From Spiroplasma endosymbiont of Crioceris asparagi (GTDB lineage: Bacteria > Bacillota_I > Bacilli_A > Mycoplasmatales > Mycoplasmataceae), in assembly GCF_964020035.1 (NCBI RefSeq), contig NZ_OZ026475.1, positions 248,001-312,000 on the forward strand: 64,000 nt of DNA. The letters are read 5' to 3'. Shown here one piece after another: positions 11,008-27,020 of the stretch (within the stretch, counting starts at the first letter, position 1; each line of letters starts with the position of its first letter). The position numbers and the translations under genes are program-made. The notes under the pieces are model-generated. The model saw only the letters and a program-made list of their open reading frames with translations. It was not told the origin of the DNA and searched no databases.

Positions 11008-13269
11008 ATGGAAAATAAAAAACCACTAATTTCAGTTAGAAATATGGTAATTGAATTCAGAAATAAAGGTAAAAAATTTGAAGCCATCAAAGGTGCCAAC
11101 CTAGACATCCAAAAGGGTGAAATTTTTGCGATTGTTGGAGAATCAGGTTCTGGTAAAACAACAATTGGTCGTGCCATTATGGGAATTCAACCAATTAAAA
11201 GTGGTGCTGTTTTCTTTGAAGATCAACTTGTTTTTGGAAGTCCTTTACACTTACATAAACTAAATAAAAAAATTCATCATCATTTAAAACAAATGGTGAT
11301 TAATTCACACATTACTTCAAGATTGTTAAACAACTACATCAATGAAGTTAAAGTCGATTATTTTAAATATATTAAACACTTAAGTTTTAATGTTAAAACT
11401 AAAGAAACTCGTCCCTTAACAGAAGCAGAATTACATAAAATAAAATATGCTTCTACAAAAACTGCTAATGTGACATTTAAAAAAATCTATTACTGACAAG
11501 AAGGAATTCTAAAAAGTTTATTAGACATTATTAGAATGCAACAAAAAACTATTCGTTTCCTTGATTATATTGATAAACAAGCTAAGGATTTAACTCCTGA
11601 AATGTATGAATCAATTCGTTTGAAATTACGTAATACACATATTATTGTGCGTGACACTAAATCCGTAGCTAATAATATTTTCAAAAAAATTGAAAACATT
11701 ATTGAAGTGAGAAAACAATATGCTAGCAAACAACTTGAGTTAGAACCAGCATTGAAAAAGATTTTTAAATTAATTGAAATTATTATTCAAGAACAATTAG
11801 TCTTAGAAGACTTTTTTCAAAAAGCGATTGATTCTCAAGAACAAAATATGGCACTTTCAGCACCACATTCTAAACGTAAAAGTTATATTGAAAAATACAA
11901 CGCTTTAATTAATGTTCCTCGTGACAAAATGTATAGTTCATTAATGAAATATAAACAAGAATATGAAGCCACAGATGCGCGTGATGATTATTTTAACCAA
12001 GCAACCTATGATGAGGTTTGTGAAGAATTAAAAAATCTTTACACAAATGAGACAGTAAATTTTAGAGCTCTAATAACTTATGTAAGACAATTTGAAAAAT
12101 CATTAGCAAGTGATAAACCAATTAACATTGCTAAATTAGATGCTTTAGTTGCTTCATTTAAAGAAAGCGATTTGGAACGTAAAGTTAAACATTATCATGA
12201 AGAAGTATTAAAACCAAAATTAGCTTTTGATGCATCATTTAAAGAATTACAAAGACAATGTGAATTTGCCTGAAAAATTGTTCGCAAGAATATTATGGTA
12301 GATAGAGATATAATTAACTTATGATACAAAGTGGAACGCAAAACTTTGGATTTAACTAGCGAAGAAATTAAAGATTATCAACAACTGCTGGATTTTTTAG
12401 AAATGCCATCACTTGATCAAGTCTTAAAAAATTTAAAAACATTAATTCCTTTAAATAAAAAGGGTGTTAGAAATAATAAAAAAATTATGCAAATGGTGTT
12501 CCAAGACCCAGCTTCTTCATTAAATGATCGTATGCCAATTGAACAAATTATTGGTGAGGGATTAGAGAATTTCCCCGAAATTTATAAAAATGATGAAACT
12601 CGTCAGTTGTATGTTGACCAATACAATAAAGACCTTAAACCAAATCAAGAACCAATTACTTTACAACAAGTTGATGATAAAAAAGTTAAACAATTCATCA
12701 CCTTAAACATGTTGAAAGAAGTGGGAATGTTACCCGAACATATGTCAAGATATCCTCATGAATTTTCTGGTGGTCAACGTCAAAGGGTGGGAATTGCCAG
12801 AGCAATGGTAATGAAACCAAAATTAATTGTGGCTGATGAACCAATATCAGCACTTGATGTGTCAATTCGTGCGCAAGTCTTAAATATGTTTAAAAAATTT
12901 CAAGAAGAAATGGGATTGACTTTTATCTTTGTTGCTCATGACTTGTCAATTGTAAGACATATTTCTACAAGAATTGCAGTTATCTATCGTGGAATAATTG
13001 TGGAAATGGCAGATTCAGAAGAATTGTTTAATCGACCAATGCACCCATATACAAAAGCATTGTTATCTGCAATTCCTGAACCAGATCCAAAAGCACAAAA
13101 TATTAAAAACAACTTTGTTTATGATGAAGAAAAAGAACACTATGATTATTTAGTTGATTTCCCAAACTTTAAGCAAATTATTAACAATCACTTTGTTTAT
13201 GCAAACTTAAGAGAACAAAGAGAAATTATCAATTCATTAATGGATAGTTCTACCAAAAAAGGAGAGTAA
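11008..13269 (+). CDS. oppF: Oligopeptide ABC transporter ATPase OppF with a very large insertion
   Basis: A 753-residue ABC ATPase, more than twice the usual OppF length. Walker [10 protein letters not shown] is near residue 44. About 430 residues then intervene, strongly charged and helical, with coiled-coil-like runs of K and E, before the Q-loop '[13 protein letters not shown]' (~495). The signature 'FSGGQRQR' (~585), Walker B '[12 protein letters not shown]' (~606), H-loop 'VAHDLS' and '[17 protein letters not shown]' are intact. It pairs with OppD as the second nucleotide-binding domain. Its stop codon shares one base with the oppA start. Confidence 0.93.
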
Positions 13270-15897: not shown

Positions 15898-16851
15898 ATG
15901 AATGAGTTTTTATTAAATTCAGTATGAGCTGTGTTAAATTCAAAAATAATAACTAAACGTGATAATTCAGTGGAATGCCAATTAAAACATTTTAAATCAC
16001 TTAAAAGAATTGTTAATATTCATGATGTTGATAAAACCCGACTATTAGATCTTGGTGAATATCATGAATGGCAACAAATTGAATTGTTTACTTCAGATGA
16101 TATCGAGCTTGCAGGAATGTATTGAATTAATCCAATTAAAACAGATAAGTGAATTATTTCACTTCATGGTTTTAGTTCTAAAAAAGAAGTTGCTGCAACT
16201 GCTGCAAGTTTTTTTAAAGCAATGGGATACAATATTTTTGCATTTGATTTTAGAAATCAGGGGATGAGTAGTGAAGACTTTGTGACTTTTGGCGTGAAAG
16301 AACAAGAAGATTTATTAACAGCACTTAAATATTTACGAAAAGAGTTTCATCCCACAACTGTTGGACTAATTGGTTTTAGTATGGGAGCTTATGCTTTAAA
16401 TGCTTTTGCTTTAAACAATGAACCAGTGTTTCAAGAATATAATATTAAGTTTGGTATTTCTGATTCAACATTTGCTAATTTATCACCAGCAATTTCAAGA
16501 TTAACAGAAACATTTGGTCATCATTTGAAGGTTAGTCGTAAAATAATTGATAATATGTTAGTTTGAGTAAAAAACAGATATATGATTAATACTGAAATGT
16601 TAAATTTAAGTAATTTTAATTTAAATAATGTGACTTCTTTCCCAATTCTTTATCTTCACTCAAAAGATGACAAAATTACTTCATATAAAGATAGTGAAAA
16701 ATTTATAAAAGAGCGAAAAAGTGTTAAAGTTTTAGGAAAGGATAATATTGTTTTATTCACAAAAGTTGGTCACATTAAAGCAATTTTTGATGTCACTCAA
16801 CAATATGTTGATGCAGTTAAACAATTCTTACAAGAAAATCAGGTAAATTAA
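15898..16851 (+). CDS. Alpha/beta hydrolase (serine hydrolase)
   Basis: A 317-residue putative lipase/esterase or peptidase of the alpha/beta hydrolase fold. The 'SLHGFSSKKE' oxyanion region, 'NIFAFDFRNQGMS', and the nucleophile elbow GFSMG (Ser near residue 160) are clear. The acid is likely Asp in 'LHSKDDKITS' and the histidine in 'FTKVGHIKAI'. This order resembles mollicute lysophospholipase-like hydrolases. GAAGGGG precedes the ATG. The stop overlaps the start of the degenerate ABC protein by one base, so the two are coupled. The substrate is unknown. Confidence 0.85.
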
Positions 16852-18107
16852 TGGAAAAAAAGATCGTTGTTCAATTAAATAATATTTTGAAAATTCACAA
16901 TGGAAGAACTATGACATTGAGAGGAATTAATCTTAATGTTTATGAAGGAGATGTCATTGCTTTAGTTGGTCCAAATAACTCAGGTAAAAATATTTTAGGA
17001 AGAGTTATTGGTGATGAAATTAAACCAACAGCAGGAAGTGTGGAATACTTTTTTGATACACCTGACATCTTATCTAATGTAGGATACCACTTTCGTAAAA
17101 ATATTTGACCTGATGGTTTTAGAGTGCAAGAAGTTATTAAGTTTTATCGAGATATTTATGGAATCAAAGATGAAGCATGAATTTCACAGCTATATGAAGT
17201 ATTTCGAATTAAATCTCATTTAAAAGAGTATTTAAATCAAAGCGATCAAAACTGATTAGAAGTGTTTTCAATGTTCCTTGCCTTTATGCATAAACCAAAA
17301 TTATTAATCTTAAATCCAATTACAACTACTATTTGGGTAGATATTAGAATTGGGATTCTAGATTTCTTAAAAAAATATCGTGAAGAAAATAATGCAACAA
17401 TTATTTTAACTTCACCATCTGATGCAATGTTTGATGCATTATGTAATCGTGTAATCACTATGCATCATGGGCAAATTTTTAGAGAAGATTCAGCGATTAA
17501 AATTAAAGAATCAGGAACTTCATTAACTGATTATTCATTAAAGGTTTATGCAGACATTAAAAAGAAAGATTTAAAATTAAAAAACCAAGACCCTGTCTTG
17601 GATGCGATTTTAAGTAAATTTGAAATGTATGAAAAAGTCTTTGATAAAGCCTTCAATGAATTATGTAAAAAACATAGTGATGAAGAAATTGAACAAATGA
17701 AACTTTTTAACGATATTAAATTAATTCAAATTAATTTGAGTACAACAAGAAAATCAATTGAAAAATTAGCGTTCTCATTAATTTCAATTAATAGCTTAAA
17801 GTTTACTAAAAAAGAAATTAAAGAATTAGTGAATTCAATTGATAAATTTATTAAACCAGTTAAAAAACTTGATCCAACCAATTTATATTTAAATGAATCA
17901 ATTGCTTTTTTAGAAGAAATTAAAGATGTAATTACATTCTGTAAACATGAGTTAATTCAAATCTTTAATGAAACCGCGTTAATTCATCGTTATTCTTCTG
18001 ATAATAAAACGTCATTACGTGAAAAACGTAAACTAAAAAAACTAAAACGTAAATATATTAAAGAAGAAAAACAAAAAATTATGAACAAAATTAAAAAAAT
18101 TACATAA
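16851..18107 (+). CDS. Degenerate ABC-type ATP-binding protein (probable pseudo-ATPase)
   Basis: A 418-residue protein with the ABC fold outline: 'MTLRGINLNVYEGDVIALVG', a helical region, 'PKLLIL', then 'NRVITMHHGQIF'. Nearly all catalytic elements are changed. Walker A is GPNNSGKN (no Gly at position 4, Asn for Ser/Thr). There is no Q-loop Gln and no recognisable LSGGQ. Walker B reads LLILNPIT (no Asp-Glu), and the H-loop reads TSPSD. About 190 extra residues, helical and very basic at the end, follow. It overlaps the hydrolase by one base and is 11 bases before two permease genes. It is probably a non-hydrolysing partner. Confidence 0.8.
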
Positions 18108-18118
18108 AGGAAATTCCA

Positions 18119-19102
18119 ATGCTTAATAATAAATGAGATATTTTTAAAGATATGATGAAATTCCAGTGAAAAAACAATCTTCGCAACATGATTAGTGTTT
18201 TTACTGGACTTTTTGTCACAATCATTTTGTTATTTACATGATTAACATTTAAGGTAATTGTCGATAAAAATGATTCTAATAAAAACATGGAATTATTTTT
18301 ACAATATGATCCCTTCATTTTGTCATCAGCGATCGGGATTAGTACAATCATTAATTGTTTTTTAAATATGGCCCGTATTATGCACGAGTTTAAAATTAAA
18401 AACTTTTTTCGTAGAACATTTGCAACAAACATTTCTAAAAAATTCTTAATTATTTGTATGGTTGCTTATAACCAAATGTTTAACATGATTGTAAGTTTAT
18501 TATTATTTTTATTTGCAATGTGTTATGTCAGCCAACGAGATGAGTTAGCGTCTGTTAATTGATTAATATTTATTGGTGGGTATTTATTATTGGCATGTAT
18601 TTGCAACTTGTTTGGAATTTATGTAGCATTTGCTGTTAAACGTTTTGATATGGTATTGATTGTAACTAATGCCTTTTATTACGCATCAACATATTTTTTA
18701 GGATTAGGGATTCCTTATGGGAGTTTAATTAATCAAAATAGTAAAATAATGTTGTGAATAAGTTATATCTTTCCCCAAAAATATCCATTGTCAATTATGC
18801 AAGCAGGGTGACAAGGGCACTTTGGTTTTGATAATATGAAACAACAAACCCGTGATGAAATTGGTGATATTGGAATTGGTTATTGGGGTCATAATTGAAT
18901 TCCATTTGTAGTAACAGCGTTATTATTTTTATTTGCTATGTTGTTATTAAGATGAATTATTAAAAGTAAATATAAAATCGAAAGAACTAATAACTATGAA
19001 AAATATGCACGTGTTTCAAAAGAATCAGCAAATAAAATTTATTTATTAGAAAGAGCAACAACAATTGAAGAGTTAAAACGTATTAAAGAGAGTCAAGGAT
19101 AA
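18119..19102 (+). CDS. ABC-2-like membrane protein (permease 1)
   Basis: A 327-residue membrane protein with about six hydrophobic segments, starting at a GGAAATTCC-spaced ATG just after the ATPase. It shares with the next gene the motif 'FPQKYPLSIMQAGWQG' in the loop between the last two TM segments, and a similar C-terminal helix ('ATTIEELKRI' against 'AESIEKLNQI'), so the two are paralogues. The layout (ATPase plus two membrane proteins) fits an ABC-2 type exporter. The substrate cannot be read. Confidence 0.75.
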
Positions 19103-19103
19103 A

Positions 19104-20069
19104 ATGGTCAAAGAACAACAAGATAAGTATTTTAATCGTCATAGTAATTTTTATGTATTAAGAAAATTAGTTTGACTACATACAAAAACATTTTTTAGAA
19201 TGCCATGAAACATTTTTGTGGGACTTTTTGTGATGTACTTAATTTTGGTGATGTGATTAATTTTTAAACCAGATAACGTGTTTGTTATTCCTTCAATCGT
19301 GGCTGTAAGTATTACAAGAAATACGGTATCAAATTTATATCGTGTGTTATTTAGATATAAATTTACATCAATTGATAAACGTATTATGTATTTACCAACA
19401 TCAATATATACCAACTTTATTGCTGTTTGTTTATTTTCATTTATTTTTAACTTTATTAATTCAGCAATTTTAATGTCGGTGCCAATAATTTTTCAATCAC
19501 AAATTACCGTTCATTCTACTAATTGATTGATGTATTTATCTGGATCATTATTACTATGAATTACTTGTGTTTTAACGTTGTATATAATTTTCTTTTGAAT
19601 GGGGATAAAGTATACCCAACTAGCTCAAGGAATTGTAATTGTCTTATATGTTGTTGTCTTTAACTTAATGGGTTGTGCGTTCCCATATGATTTAATAATG
19701 CAACATAAAGGATTAAATGCATTTTTATATTTATTCCCCCAACGTTATGCAATCAACATAATGCAAGCAGGGTGAATTAATGCCACTGATATGATTATGC
19801 CAGCCAACATCACTACTTCTAACTTACCAGCAGTAAGTTTTGGATTTGCAGGACAATTATGAATTCCATATCTTGTATCAATTGTGTATATTATTTTAAT
19901 GGTAGGAATGTTATATATATTTTTCATCTTTAAATCAGAAGCACAATTTCACGTTTATACTAAAGCCCAAAAACAAAATAAAGAAAGTTATTTGTATCGT
20001 GTCAAACACGCTGAGTCAATTGAGAAATTAAATCAAATTCACGATGAGTGGAATAACTCCCATAAATAA
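19104..20069 (+). CDS. ABC-2-like membrane protein (permease 2)
   Basis: A 321-residue paralogue of the preceding permease, starting one base after its stop. About six TM segments are visible; the shared loop reads 'FPQRYAINIMQAGWIN'. The N-terminal 'LVWLHTKTFFRMPWNIFVGLFV' matches the region 'MMKFQWKNNLRNMISVFTG' of its partner in arrangement. The pair probably forms a heterodimeric channel with the degenerate ATPase. A short gap with no clear terminator leads to the amino-acid permease. Confidence 0.75.
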
Positions 20070-22433: not shown

Positions 22434-24398
22434 ATGAAAAAATTAATAGGATTGTTAGGATCTTTAGGTCTAGTTGCCGCAGCTGGTGTTACAGTTGTGT
22501 CATGTGGAAATAAAGACAAAGACAAAGACGAAAATGGATTAGCAAAATTGCTAAGCAATGTTAAATTTGATGAAACATCAAAATTATCAGATGTAAAAAA
22601 AGAAATTATTGAAATAGTAGGCGATGCTAATAAAGATAATATTGATGTTACATCAAATCATAAAGCAGAAGCAGATGCTGACAAAGATGTTTTAGCAGTA
22701 GGAGATGTAGTTACTGTTACAGCAAAATCAGACTTCGATGTTATGGGTGGTCAAGATGGTAAAGAAAGATTAGCATCAGTTAAAAAAGACGAAACTTTTA
22801 ACATTACAATTTTAGATTCAACAAAAAAAGTTACAGCTGCTGAAATTAAAGCAGTTGAAGCCGTTACAAAAATCAAAGATTCAGCAGGCATTGATGATGT
22901 TAATGGTAAATTAAAAGCTGTTGTTGATTCAAATGATTATAAAGATAAATTATCTTCATTAACAGCAGTACTTAAACAAGATTCACAAACTGATGTTGTT
23001 GTGGCTATTGAAACAAAAGGTGATTACTGAATTTCTGGTGATAAAACATTTGAACTTATAGGAGCAATCAAAAAACAAGAAGATAAAAAAATAACAGCTG
23101 ATGCAATTTCACAAAATAACGCTATTAAAGCTATTAAAGGTTTAGAAAATTTAGATGCTGTTAATGCAGCATTAACAGCCGCAATTCCAAACATTGATGG
23201 TGTTAAATCATTAACTGCTGTTCTTGATGCTAAACCAACCGATGTTGTAGTAACTATTGAAGCAGCTGATGGTTATACAGTTGATGGTGTTAATACATTT
23301 AAAATTATTGGAGCAATCAAAGAAAATAAACCTACACCAGAAGTTAAAAAAATAACAGCTGATGCAATTTCACAAAATAATGCTATTAAAGCTATTAAAG
23401 GTTTAGAAAATTTAGATGCTGTTAATGCAGCATTAACAGCCGCAATTCCAAACATTGATGGTGTTAAATCATTAACTGCTGTTCTTGATGCTAAACCAAC
23501 TGATGTTGTAGTAACTATTGAAGCAGCTAATGGTTATACAATTGATGGTGTTAATACATTTAAAATTATTGGAGCAATCAAAGAAAATAAACCTACACCA
23601 GAAGTTAAAAAAATAACAGCTGATGCAATTTCACAAAATAATGCTATTAAAGCTATTAAAGGTTTAGAAAATTTAGATGCTGTTAATGCAGCATTAACAG
23701 CCGCAATTCCAAACATTGATGGTGTTAAATCATTAACTGCTGTTCTTGATGCTAAACCAACTGATGTTGTAGTAACTATTGAAGCAGCTAATGGTTATAC
23801 AATTGATGGTGTTAATACATTTAAAATTATTGGAGCAATCAAAGAAAATAAACCTACACCAGAAGTTAAAAAAATAACAGCTGATGCAATTTCACAAAAT
23901 AATGCTATTAAAGCTATTAAAGGTTTAGAAAATTTAGATGCTGTTAATGCAGCATTAACAGCCGCAATTCCAAACATTGATGGTGTTAAATCATTAACTG
24001 CTGTTCTTGATGCTAAACCAACTGATGTTGTAGTAACTATTGAAGCAGCTAATGGTTATACAATTGATGGTGTTAATACATTTAAAATTATTGGAGCAAT
24101 TAAAGATAGCCAACCAAAACCACCAGCTAACAAAGACATTGCAGTTGATAATGATAAAGCAACAACCGTTATCAAAAAAACTGCCACAATAACAATTACA
24201 AACTTTCCAGATTTACAAAATGTAGTTGTTGCTTCCGAAAATGAAGCAATTGCAACAGTTGTACCACCAACTCAAGATGGAACAATTGTTATTACAGGAA
24301 TGGCTGAAGGAACAACAAATATAACAATTACAGCTAGCAATGCTAATGCAACAAAAACTATTGCTGTTATAGTTACTAAAGCACCCAAAACTTTATAA
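22434..24398 (+). CDS. Surface lipoprotein with tandem 87-residue repeats and Ig-like end
   Basis: A 654-residue lipoprotein. Signal 'MKKLIGLLGSLGLVAAAG', Cys24 ('VVSC'). A unique N-terminal module (about residues 35-130) ends 'ETFNITILDSTK'. A diverged repeat unit follows, then four nearly identical 87-residue units, each containing 'ITADAISQNNAIKAIKG' and 'TFKIIGAIKENKPTP'. The last ~90 residues ('VTVIKKTATITI' type strands, 'ITGMAEGTTNITITA') resemble a bacterial Ig-like group 2 domain. Units resemble the domain repeated in mollicute variable surface lipoproteins. An in-frame TGA at 23028-23030 is Trp. Copy number probably varies by recombination. Confidence 0.88.
23085..24110 (+). repeat. 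Four tandem 261-bp coding repeats
   Basis: Units begin at 23085, 23346, 23607 and 23868 (261-bp period, 87 codons). Units 2-4 are almost base-for-base identical, while unit 1 differs at a few sites. A diverged fifth unit precedes them at about 22827-23084. Confidence 0.93.
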
Positions 24399-24626: not shown

Positions 24627-27020
24627 ATGAAGAAATTAATAGGATTATTAGGTTCTTTAGGTCTAGTTGCCGCAGCTGGTATTACAGTTGTGTCATGTGG
24701 AGATAAAGACAAAAAAGATAACACTATAACATTAAAAATATTATTAAGTGACCTTAAAATAAATGATAGTCAAACCAAAAAAGATGTTAAAGATCAAATA
24801 GCATCAAAATTAATGGGGGCTACACTCGATAAAGATTATTCAGTCACATTTAATCCGAAATCATCTATTAGTAAAAACTTATCAGATGATGATAAGTTAA
24901 CAAACATTAAATCAATTACTGTTAAAGCACTACAAGATTTTAAAGTAAATGAAAAACAAGTAAAAAAAGATGATTCTTGTGATATTGATGTAACAGATGC
25001 GAATAGAATTAAAGATATTTCTAAATTGCATCCAAAAGCAATTGGTGGTGGGAAAACTGCACTTACTGAAGATGAAGCTAAACCACAAGCAATTGCTGCC
25101 GTTATTAAAGCTGCATCAACTGATGATAATCTTAAAAAATTAGCAAAAGAAGATTTAGATACTAAAGAATTTAAAGCTAATACAAAAGATGCTGATGGAT
25201 CAATTACAGTATTTGTTAAAAAAGCGAGCGAAGATAAGTTTAAAGGTGAAGTAAAAGTAACTATTACAAAATTTACTAAAGATAAAGAAGATAAAGAAGT
25301 TAAAGCAGATGACATTAAAAATAATGCTGATGTTAAAAAAATCAAAGACTTAGCTGACTTAGCCGCTGTTAACAAAGCACTAGATGATGTTGCTAAAAAA
25401 ATTGATGGTGTGGATACATTAGTAGGAAAAGTTGATGACAAACCAACTAATGTAAAAGTAACTATTAAATTAAAAACTGGTTACAAACTTACAGGTGATG
25501 ATACTTTTGTAATTGAGGGTGCAATTAAAGCAGCAGATAAAGAAGTTAAAGCAGATGACATTAAAAATAATGCCGATGTTAAAAAAATCAAAGACTTAGC
25601 TGACTTAGCCGCTGTTAACAAAGCACTAGATGATATTGCTAAAAAAATTGATGGTGTGGATACATTAGTAGGAAAAGTTGATGACAAACCAACTAATGTA
25701 AAAGTAACTATCAAATTAAAAACTGGTTACAAACTTAAAGGTGATGATACTTTTGTAATTGAAGGTGCAATTAAAGCAGCAGATAAAGAAGTTAAAGCAG
25801 ATGACATTAAAAATAATGCTGATGTTAAAAAAATCAAAGACTTAGCCGACTTAGCCGCTGTTAACAAAGCATTAGATGATATTGCTAAAAAAATTGAAGG
25901 TGTGGATACATTAGTAGGAAAAGTTGATGACAAACCAACTAATGTAAAAGTGACTATTAAATTAAAAACTGGTTACAAACTTACAGGTAATGATACTTTT
26001 GTAATTGAAGGTGCAATTAAAGCAGCAGATAAAGAAGTTAAAGCAGATGACATTAAAAATAATGCTGATGTTAAAAAAATCAAAGACTTAGCTGACTTAG
26101 CCGCTGTTAACAAAGCACTAGATGATGTTGCTAAAAAAATTGAAGGTGTAGATACATTAGTAGGAAAAGTTGATGACAAACCAACTAATGTAAAAGTAAC
26201 TATTAAATTAAAAACTGGTTACAAACTTACAGGTGATGATACTTTTGTAATTGAAGGTGCAATTAAAGCAGCAGATAAAGAAGTTAAAGCAGATGACATT
26301 AAAAATAATGCTGATGTTAAAAAAATCAAAGACTTAGCTGACTTAGCCGCTGTTAACAAAGCATTAGATGATGTTGCTAAAAAAATTGAAGGTGTAGATA
26401 CATTAGTAGGAAAAGTTGATGACAAACCAACTAATGTAAAAGTAACTATCAAATTAAAAACTGGTTACAAACTTACAGGTGATGATACTTTTGTAATTGA
26501 GGGTGCTATTAAAGCAGCAGATAAAGAAGTTAAAGCAGATGACATTAAAAATAATGCCGATGTTAAAAAAATCAAAGACTTAGCTGACTTAGCCGCTGTT
26601 AACAAAGCACTAGATGATATTGCTAAAAAAATTGAAGGTGTGGATACATTAGTAGGAAAAGTTGATGATAAACCAACTAATGTAAAAGTAACTATCAAAT
26701 TAAAAACTGGTTACAAACTTACAGGTGCTGATACTTTTGTAATTGAAGGTGCTATTAAAGCAGCAGATAAAGAAGTTAAAGCAGATGACATTAAAAATAA
26801 TGCCGATGTTAAAAAAATCAAAGACTTAGCTGACTTAGCCGCTGTTAACAAAGCATTAGATGATGTTGCTAAAAAAATTGATGGTGTGGATACATTAGTA
26901 GGAAAAGTTGATGATAAACCAACTAATGTAAAAGTAACTATCAAATTAAAAACTGGTTATAAACTTACAGGTAATGATACTTTTGTAATTGAAGGTGCAA
27001 TTAAAGCAAAAACTTTATAA
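24627..27020 (+). CDS. Surface lipoprotein with seven tandem 82-residue repeats
   Basis: A 797-residue lipoprotein with Cys24 after 'MKKLIGLLGSLGLVAAAG'. The first ~90 mature residues form one module; a second (about residues 137-220), with 'EAKPQAIAAVIKAAS' and 'GEVKVTITKF', resembles the C-terminal domain of the lipoprotein at 46964 and, loosely, the spiralin core. Seven 82-residue units follow, with 'DIKNNADVKKIKDLADLAAV' near their start and 'TFVIEGAIKA' near their end. The protein stops abruptly inside the seventh linker ('AKTL'). Repeat identity implies recent expansion. It is very Lys- and Asp-rich, without in-frame TGA. Confidence 0.9.
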   Translation: MKKLIGLLGSLGLVAAAGITVVSCGDKDKKDNTITLKILLSDLKINDSQTKKDVKDQIASKLMGATLDKDYSVTFNPKSSISKNLSDDDKLTNIKSITVKALQDFKVNEKQVKKDDSCDIDVTDANRIKDISKLHPKAIGGGKTALTEDEAKPQAIAAVIKAASTDDNLKKLAKEDLDTKEFKANTKDADGSITVFVKKASEDKFKGEVKVTITKFTKDKEDKEVKADDIKNNADVKKIKDLADLAAVNKALDDVAKKIDGVDTLVGKVDDKPTNVKVTIKLKTGYKLTGDDTFVIEGAIKAADKEVKADDIKNNADVKKIKDLADLAAVNKALDDIAKKIDGVDTLVGKVDDKPTNVKVTIKLKTGYKLKGDDTFVIEGAIKAADKEVKADDIKNNADVKKIKDLADLAAVNKALDDIAKKIEGVDTLVGKVDDKPTNVKVTIKLKTGYKLTGNDTFVIEGAIKAADKEVKADDIKNNADVKKIKDLADLAAVNKALDDVAKKIEGVDTLVGKVDDKPTNVKVTIKLKTGYKLTGDDTFVIEGAIKAADKEVKADDIKNNADVKKIKDLADLAAVNKALDDVAKKIEGVDTLVGKVDDKPTNVKVTIKLKTGYKLTGDDTFVIEGAIKAADKEVKADDIKNNADVKKIKDLADLAAVNKALDDIAKKIEGVDTLVGKVDDKPTNVKVTIKLKTGYKLTGADTFVIEGAIKAADKEVKADDIKNNADVKKIKDLADLAAVNKALDDVAKKIDGVDTLVGKVDDKPTNVKVTIKLKTGYKLTGNDTFVIEGAIKAKTL
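25293..27011 (+). repeat. Seven tandem 246-bp coding repeats
   Basis: Units start at 25293, 25539, 25785, 26031, 26277, 26523 and 26769 (246-bp period, 82 codons). They differ at scattered single bases only, for example Asp/Glu in 'KKI(D/E)GVDTL' and Asp/Asn/Ala in 'LTG(D/N/A)DTF'. Confidence 0.95.

Follow-up and report, generated by a model that had tools for sequence, protein, structure and literature searches.

Gene organization of the locus

The window, as we call the whole analysed stretch of 64,000 nucleotides, belongs to a mollicute genome of 701 kb that is read with genetic code 4 (TGA=Trp). We found four closely spaced plus-strand genes in it, of which the first encodes an alpha/beta hydrolase of the S33/Hydrolase_4 type (15898-16851; Pfam Hydrolase_4, 1.7e-12) with an intact triad S161-D258-H292. 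A single base, 16851, is common to the hydrolase stop codon TAA and to the ATG of the second gene (16851-18107), which encodes a catalytically degenerate ABC ATPase-like subunit of 418 amino acids, composed of a nucleotide-binding domain (NBD, residues 1-224) and an all-helical C-terminal domain (residues 225-418). Two genes for predicted ABC-2/type V permeases follow, permease 1 (18119-19102, 327 aa) and its paralogue permease 2 (19104-20069, 321 aa), and complete what we refer to as the three-gene block. An amino-acid permease gene lies downstream of the block.

Upstream of the hydrolase are genes resembling an Opp-type ABC system. One of them (11008-13269) encodes an OppF-like ATPase whose translation shows intact motifs, AHD among them. 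In this protein of 753 aa, an insertion of several hundred residues separates Walker A from the Q-loop region. Two lipoprotein-like genes (22434-24398 and 24627-27020), whose translations both start with MKKLIGLLGSLGLVAAAG, are built of nearly identical tandem units of some 75-80 residues each, about four in the first gene and about eight in the second.

Degenerate motifs in a predicted ABC fold

By profile and predicted fold, the 418-residue protein is still an ABC ATPase homologue. It matches Pfam ABC_tran (PF00005) with an E-value of 3.4e-8 and 34.6 bits (cut-off 25), and structure prediction gives an ABC NBD fold with a mean pLDDT of 85, for which the EcsA model (Z 25.2), NosF (24.7) and PmtC (23.9) are the best structural matches. 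Of the residues by which an ABC NBD is recognized, however, the LSGGQ signature, the Walker B Asp-Glu pair, the H-loop His and the Q-loop Gln are all lost. The preliminary description, which regarded every motif as altered, was thus right for these four and went too far for Walker A, where the P-loop glycines and lysine are intact.

Walker A reads GPNNSGKN (16968-16991, codons 40-47), with the GK of the P-loop kept and the Mg-ligand Ser/Thr replaced by Asn (N47). In the Q-loop, VGYHFR, Gln is exchanged for Arg82 (17091-17096, codons 81-82). LNQSDQ (17232-17249, codons 128-133) takes the position of the signature, which is LSGGQ in canonical cousins, and the end of Walker B, LILNP (17304-17318, codons 152-156), has Asn for Asp155 and Pro for Glu156. 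The H-loop, TSPSD, has Pro189 for His (17415-17417, codon 189). Lacking the two Mg ligands (N47, N155) as well as the catalytic Glu (P156), the window protein is an extreme member of its family. Adjoining the Q-loop, the stretch WPDGF (17106-17120, codons 86-90) is common to the dead family and its canonical cousins; going by what is known of the ABC fold, the coupling helix of a permease would dock there.

A family-wide loss of Q-loop, signature and H-loop residues

The full-length ATPase, C-terminal domain included, was found in 44 of the 60 genomes searched from the same family, one copy being cut by a contig end, and is absent there from genus g8 and two single species; the other families sampled within the order gave no full-length match. 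A scan of named genomes yielded few matches, among them Williamsoniiplasma lucivorax, Mesoplasma grammopterae, M. lactucae and M. seiffertii. The block itself is intact, with ATPase, permease 1 and permease 2 adjoining, in all 43 genomes read. Its genes overlap slightly or lie up to a few tens of bases apart; the exception is G025, in which the frame read for the second permease is shortened.

We aligned 45 ATPases, representing 43 genomes and two second copies. None keeps the LSGGQ signature, the least conserved motif region, and none keeps the H-loop His, which is Pro in 43; the Q-loop Gln survives in one sequence and is Arg in 42. The most conserved stretch of the family is WPDGF, in which W86, P87 and G89 are invariant. 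Walker A Lys is present in 45/45 and Walker A Ser/Thr in 42/45, and Walker B retains its Asp in 43 and its Glu in 37 sequences. Canonical cousins aligned in the same run, one of them from the same genome, have intact motifs, and misalignment is therefore not the cause of the motif loss.

The expectation that orthologues would lack the same residues is consequently borne out in part. Loss of the Q-loop Gln, the signature and the H-loop His is family-wide, hence ancient and common to the family, whereas most orthologues retain the Walker A Ser/Thr and the Walker B Asp/Glu, whose losses therefore belong to the lineage of the window. Some further long branches, namely G006, G009, G073b and the partial G007, also show part of the losses of Mg ligands and catalytic Glu.

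The conserved replacements (Arg in 42 and Pro in 43 of the 45 sequences), together with Walker A and B motifs that are largely kept in relatives, could point to an unorthodox but real ATPase, which would hydrolyse ATP by way of Arg82, Pro189 and a new LSxxxIV or CNxSW stretch, with the window copy as an exception. We consider this quite unlikely, as Pro offers no side chain that could stand in for the gamma-phosphate-contacting His, the Ser-Gly-Gly of the signature has disappeared, and in the window member the Walker B Asp and Glu are missing as well.

Phylogeny and purifying selection

All 45 dead ATPases form one clade (support 100/99) nested among canonical cousins, and the clade holds at 99 with added outgroups when the dead family is sampled with 21 members. 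Its sister, with an SH-aLRT of 80, is the partly degenerate NBD of genus g8. There, the NBD lies between two permeases, for example in the cassettes G028:C1:724471-726823 (L052) and G061:C1:600716-603122 (L152). Like the block, the g8 cassette has homologous permeases, and its NBD has lost the Q-loop Gln (LNG), the signature (LTPEY) and the Walker B Glu (DR); unlike the block, it keeps the H-loop His, lacks the C-terminal helical domain and has a different gene order. The simplest reading is a stepwise loss among NBDs with the WP motif, in which we infer that signature and Q-loop went first, the H-loop later and, in some lineages, Walker A and B last.

In 67 close pairs of relatives, which do not include the window species, dN/dS of the ATPase (Nei-Gojobori) was 0.04-0.27, far from the value of 1 that the preliminary description had named as speaking against conservation. 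Single ratios are rough, as dS approaches or exceeds 1 in many pairs, yet pairs with dS below 0.4 gave similarly low values of 0.06-0.16. The permeases have a dN/dS similar to that of the ATPase in close pairs of relatives. The relatives of the block are under purifying selection.

The window copy might nevertheless be a pseudogene at an early stage of decay in a shrinking genome. The genome is small, the Walker A and B losses are specific to the window and a few long branches, and another ABC protein of the same genome has lost motifs that its relatives keep. On the other hand, the chance of 418 codons without TAA or TAG at a GC content of 25.6% is about 1e-14, so that the long open frame, already stressed in the preliminary description, is not a product of chance; moreover, the gene has a normal codon-position GC pattern and intact partner genes. 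Its NBD is 0.37 identical to those of nine relatives, close to the 0.34-0.39 of other deep-branching members and in line with the divergence of its permeases (0.35 and 0.31). True decay looks different: G071b (G071:C1:1423472-1424686), a second copy of the dead ATPase, carries in-frame stop codons in the searched stretch. We thus rejected decay of the window copy, on account of its frame length, its divergence relative to the permeases and the dN/dS in relatives, and regard it as very improbable.

Permeases of the predicted ABC-2 class

The permease 1 orthologue adjoins the ATPase in every genome read. Its AlphaFold2 model (pLDDT 79) best matches ABCG1, AtABCG25, Wzm, KpsM, NosY and TarG; all Foldseek matches shown are of the ABCG/Wzm/NosY class, although the best E-value is only about 3e-3. 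The permeases of relatives have Pfam ABC2_membrane matches, whereas the window copies stay below the cut-off and gave no above-threshold Pfam match. Judged by topology and predicted fold, the permeases belong to the ABC-2/type V class. Lipids or lipid-linked molecules are the cargo of many proteins of this structural class, and lipid transport by such relatives is the only hint, by analogy, of what the permeases might carry.

The stretch FPQ(K/R)Y...IMQAGW, to which the preliminary description had drawn attention, is indeed present in both permeases and falls into predicted extracellular helices between TM5 and TM6. This is presumably the usual position of the P-x-x-Y motif in ABC-2 proteins, and the shared stretch therefore shows paralogy and nothing special.

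A loose link to the hydrolase and a variable neighbourhood

The hydrolase triad is invariant in an 11-member alignment (A4), and in 29 of 43 genomes the gene immediately precedes the ATPase, while the other genomes have it at another position. Coupling of the hydrolase to the transporter, which had been suggested from the one-base overlap, is supported by this adjacency; the overlap itself occurs only in the window among the genomes compared. In a profile search, the hydrolase was kept in G003 and G023, both of which lack the block, and an obligate partnership was rejected for this reason. The link between hydrolase and block is real but loose.

In genera g3, g4 and g12, the block is located between the division genes mraW-ftsA-ftsZ-sepF and ileS-lspA, an assignment based on Pfam for the G012 locus (L042) and on the look of the sequences for L036, L037, L039 and L043. 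Genus g11 has Opp-like genes in place of the division genes, and the ftsA-ftsZ-sepF position is not kept in the window or in g5/g10. The location in g3, g4 and g12 invites comparison with FtsEX, from which the block differs in that its permeases are of the ABC-2 type and not FtsX-like, and in that its position near division genes is not family-wide. A role of the block in membrane biogenesis or division is an idea and not a result.

No complete site with a borrowed ATPase

The dead subunit could in principle pair with a live ATPase encoded elsewhere, as the preliminary description had proposed. The canonical cousin G000:C1:471534-472235 would be a candidate: the unusual WP motif next to the Q-loop is present in it too, it comes with a homologous permease, and an orthologue or close paralogue of it exists in nearly all genomes with the block, while G003 and G023 lack both. 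However, this homologous permease adjoins the cousin's own gene, G001 and G009 have the cousin only as paralogue-level matches, and in G004, which possesses the block, an orthologue of the cousin is missing (best match 3.2e-29).

The motifs argue in the same direction. In known degenerate heterodimers one consensus site is kept, because the subunit with defective Walker residues retains a good signature. Here, the signature is missing in 45 of 45 dead subunits, so that neither composite site would be complete with a live partner, and as catalytic residues and signature are both lost, no partner, be it a second copy of the subunit itself or a canonical ATPase, completes a standard site. Borrowing of another ATPase thus appears unlikely.

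Comparison with described systems

ABC transporters with degenerate sites, including heterodimeric exporters, have been reviewed, and ABCG5/G8 among them belongs to the same ABCG/type V class as the block (PMC7756269). Like the block, TM287/288, TAP, BmrCD and ABCG5/G8 combine substituted catalytic or signature residues with a conserved transporter; unlike it, they keep one complete site, whereas the single NBD of the operon has neither signature nor catalytic residues and forms no complete site within the operon. The closest NBD folds are those of EcsA/EcsB of Firmicutes, NosF/NosY and PmtC/PmtD, in which, as in the block, an NBD gene is accompanied by ABC-2-like permeases. EcsA, NosF and PmtC belong to families of active ATPases, in contrast to what we propose for the NBD of the block. 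The window permeases gave no EcsB Pfam match, and the fold comparison does not discriminate on this point.

The ATPase and both permeases stay below the cut-off of every curated NCBIfam model. Our literature searches of open-licence papers found no description of a dead-ATPase family of this kind, and the main text of the Mesoplasma florum and JCVI-syn3A minimal-genome papers contains no mention of it under the terms searched.

A probable conserved complex working without ATP hydrolysis

The reading that we favour, with a probability of roughly two in three, is a conserved ABC-2 (type V) complex that functions without hydrolysing ATP. From the window alone, a conserved ABC protein without hydrolysis had already been proposed, and the family-wide losses of Q-loop, signature and H-loop residues and the low dN/dS in relatives agree with this proposal. 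Our confidence in any particular action of the complex is lower.

Probably, two copies of the degenerate NBD, a stoichiometry that we assume, would sit on a heterodimer of permease 1 and permease 2. The P-loop Lys, present throughout the family, and the Walker B Glu, present in most of it, suggest that nucleotide still matters in most members, and we infer that in most relatives ATP continues to bind to the NBD in cis, in a structural or regulatory role; a non-consensus site may also retain some ATPase activity. In the window lineage, even Mg-ATP binding has probably been lost, which would leave the NBD to clamp the permease pair from the cytoplasmic side. This pair could then be a membrane scaffold, or it could let a substrate such as a lipid pass, either passively or in a gated manner; the same membrane process may involve the helical C-terminal domain and the lipase-like hydrolase encoded next to the block. 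As a tentative picture, somewhat short of an even chance, the block would be a two-permease unit held together by pseudo-ATPases and non-hydrolysing across most of the family, which would either organise the membrane of wall-less cells or provide them with a lipid path, passive or nucleotide-gated. If so, it would be an ABC equivalent of pseudokinase complexes.

In the described transporters a degenerate site stands beside one complete site; the only NBD of the block builds none. If our reading is true, an ABC architecture can be put to use in the absence of ATP turnover and is kept in this form by purifying selection in very small genomes, which would provide a natural system that separates the structural from the catalytic roles of NBDs. 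Automated annotation would label these proteins as ABC transporters, and the ATP-driven transport implied by this label would then be wrong in metabolic models of the organisms concerned.

A second dead ABC protein in the same genome

Outside the window, the same small genome encodes a second, independent dead ABC protein, a Peptidase_C39-ABC protein of the bacteriocin-exporter type (G000:C1:323619-325565, plus strand; L084:40-1986) of 649 aa, or 673 aa with an upstream start. Its NBD lacks the Walker A, signature, Walker B and H-loop residues, which relatives in G001, G018 and G024 keep as GKSGSGKT, LSKGQRQ, DEPLSNVD and DHD. Since an unrelated ABC protein of this 701-kb genome has lost motifs that its relatives retain, part of the loss in the window may reflect a lineage-wide relaxation. 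The putative peptidase residues Cys, His and Asp of the C39 protein look intact.
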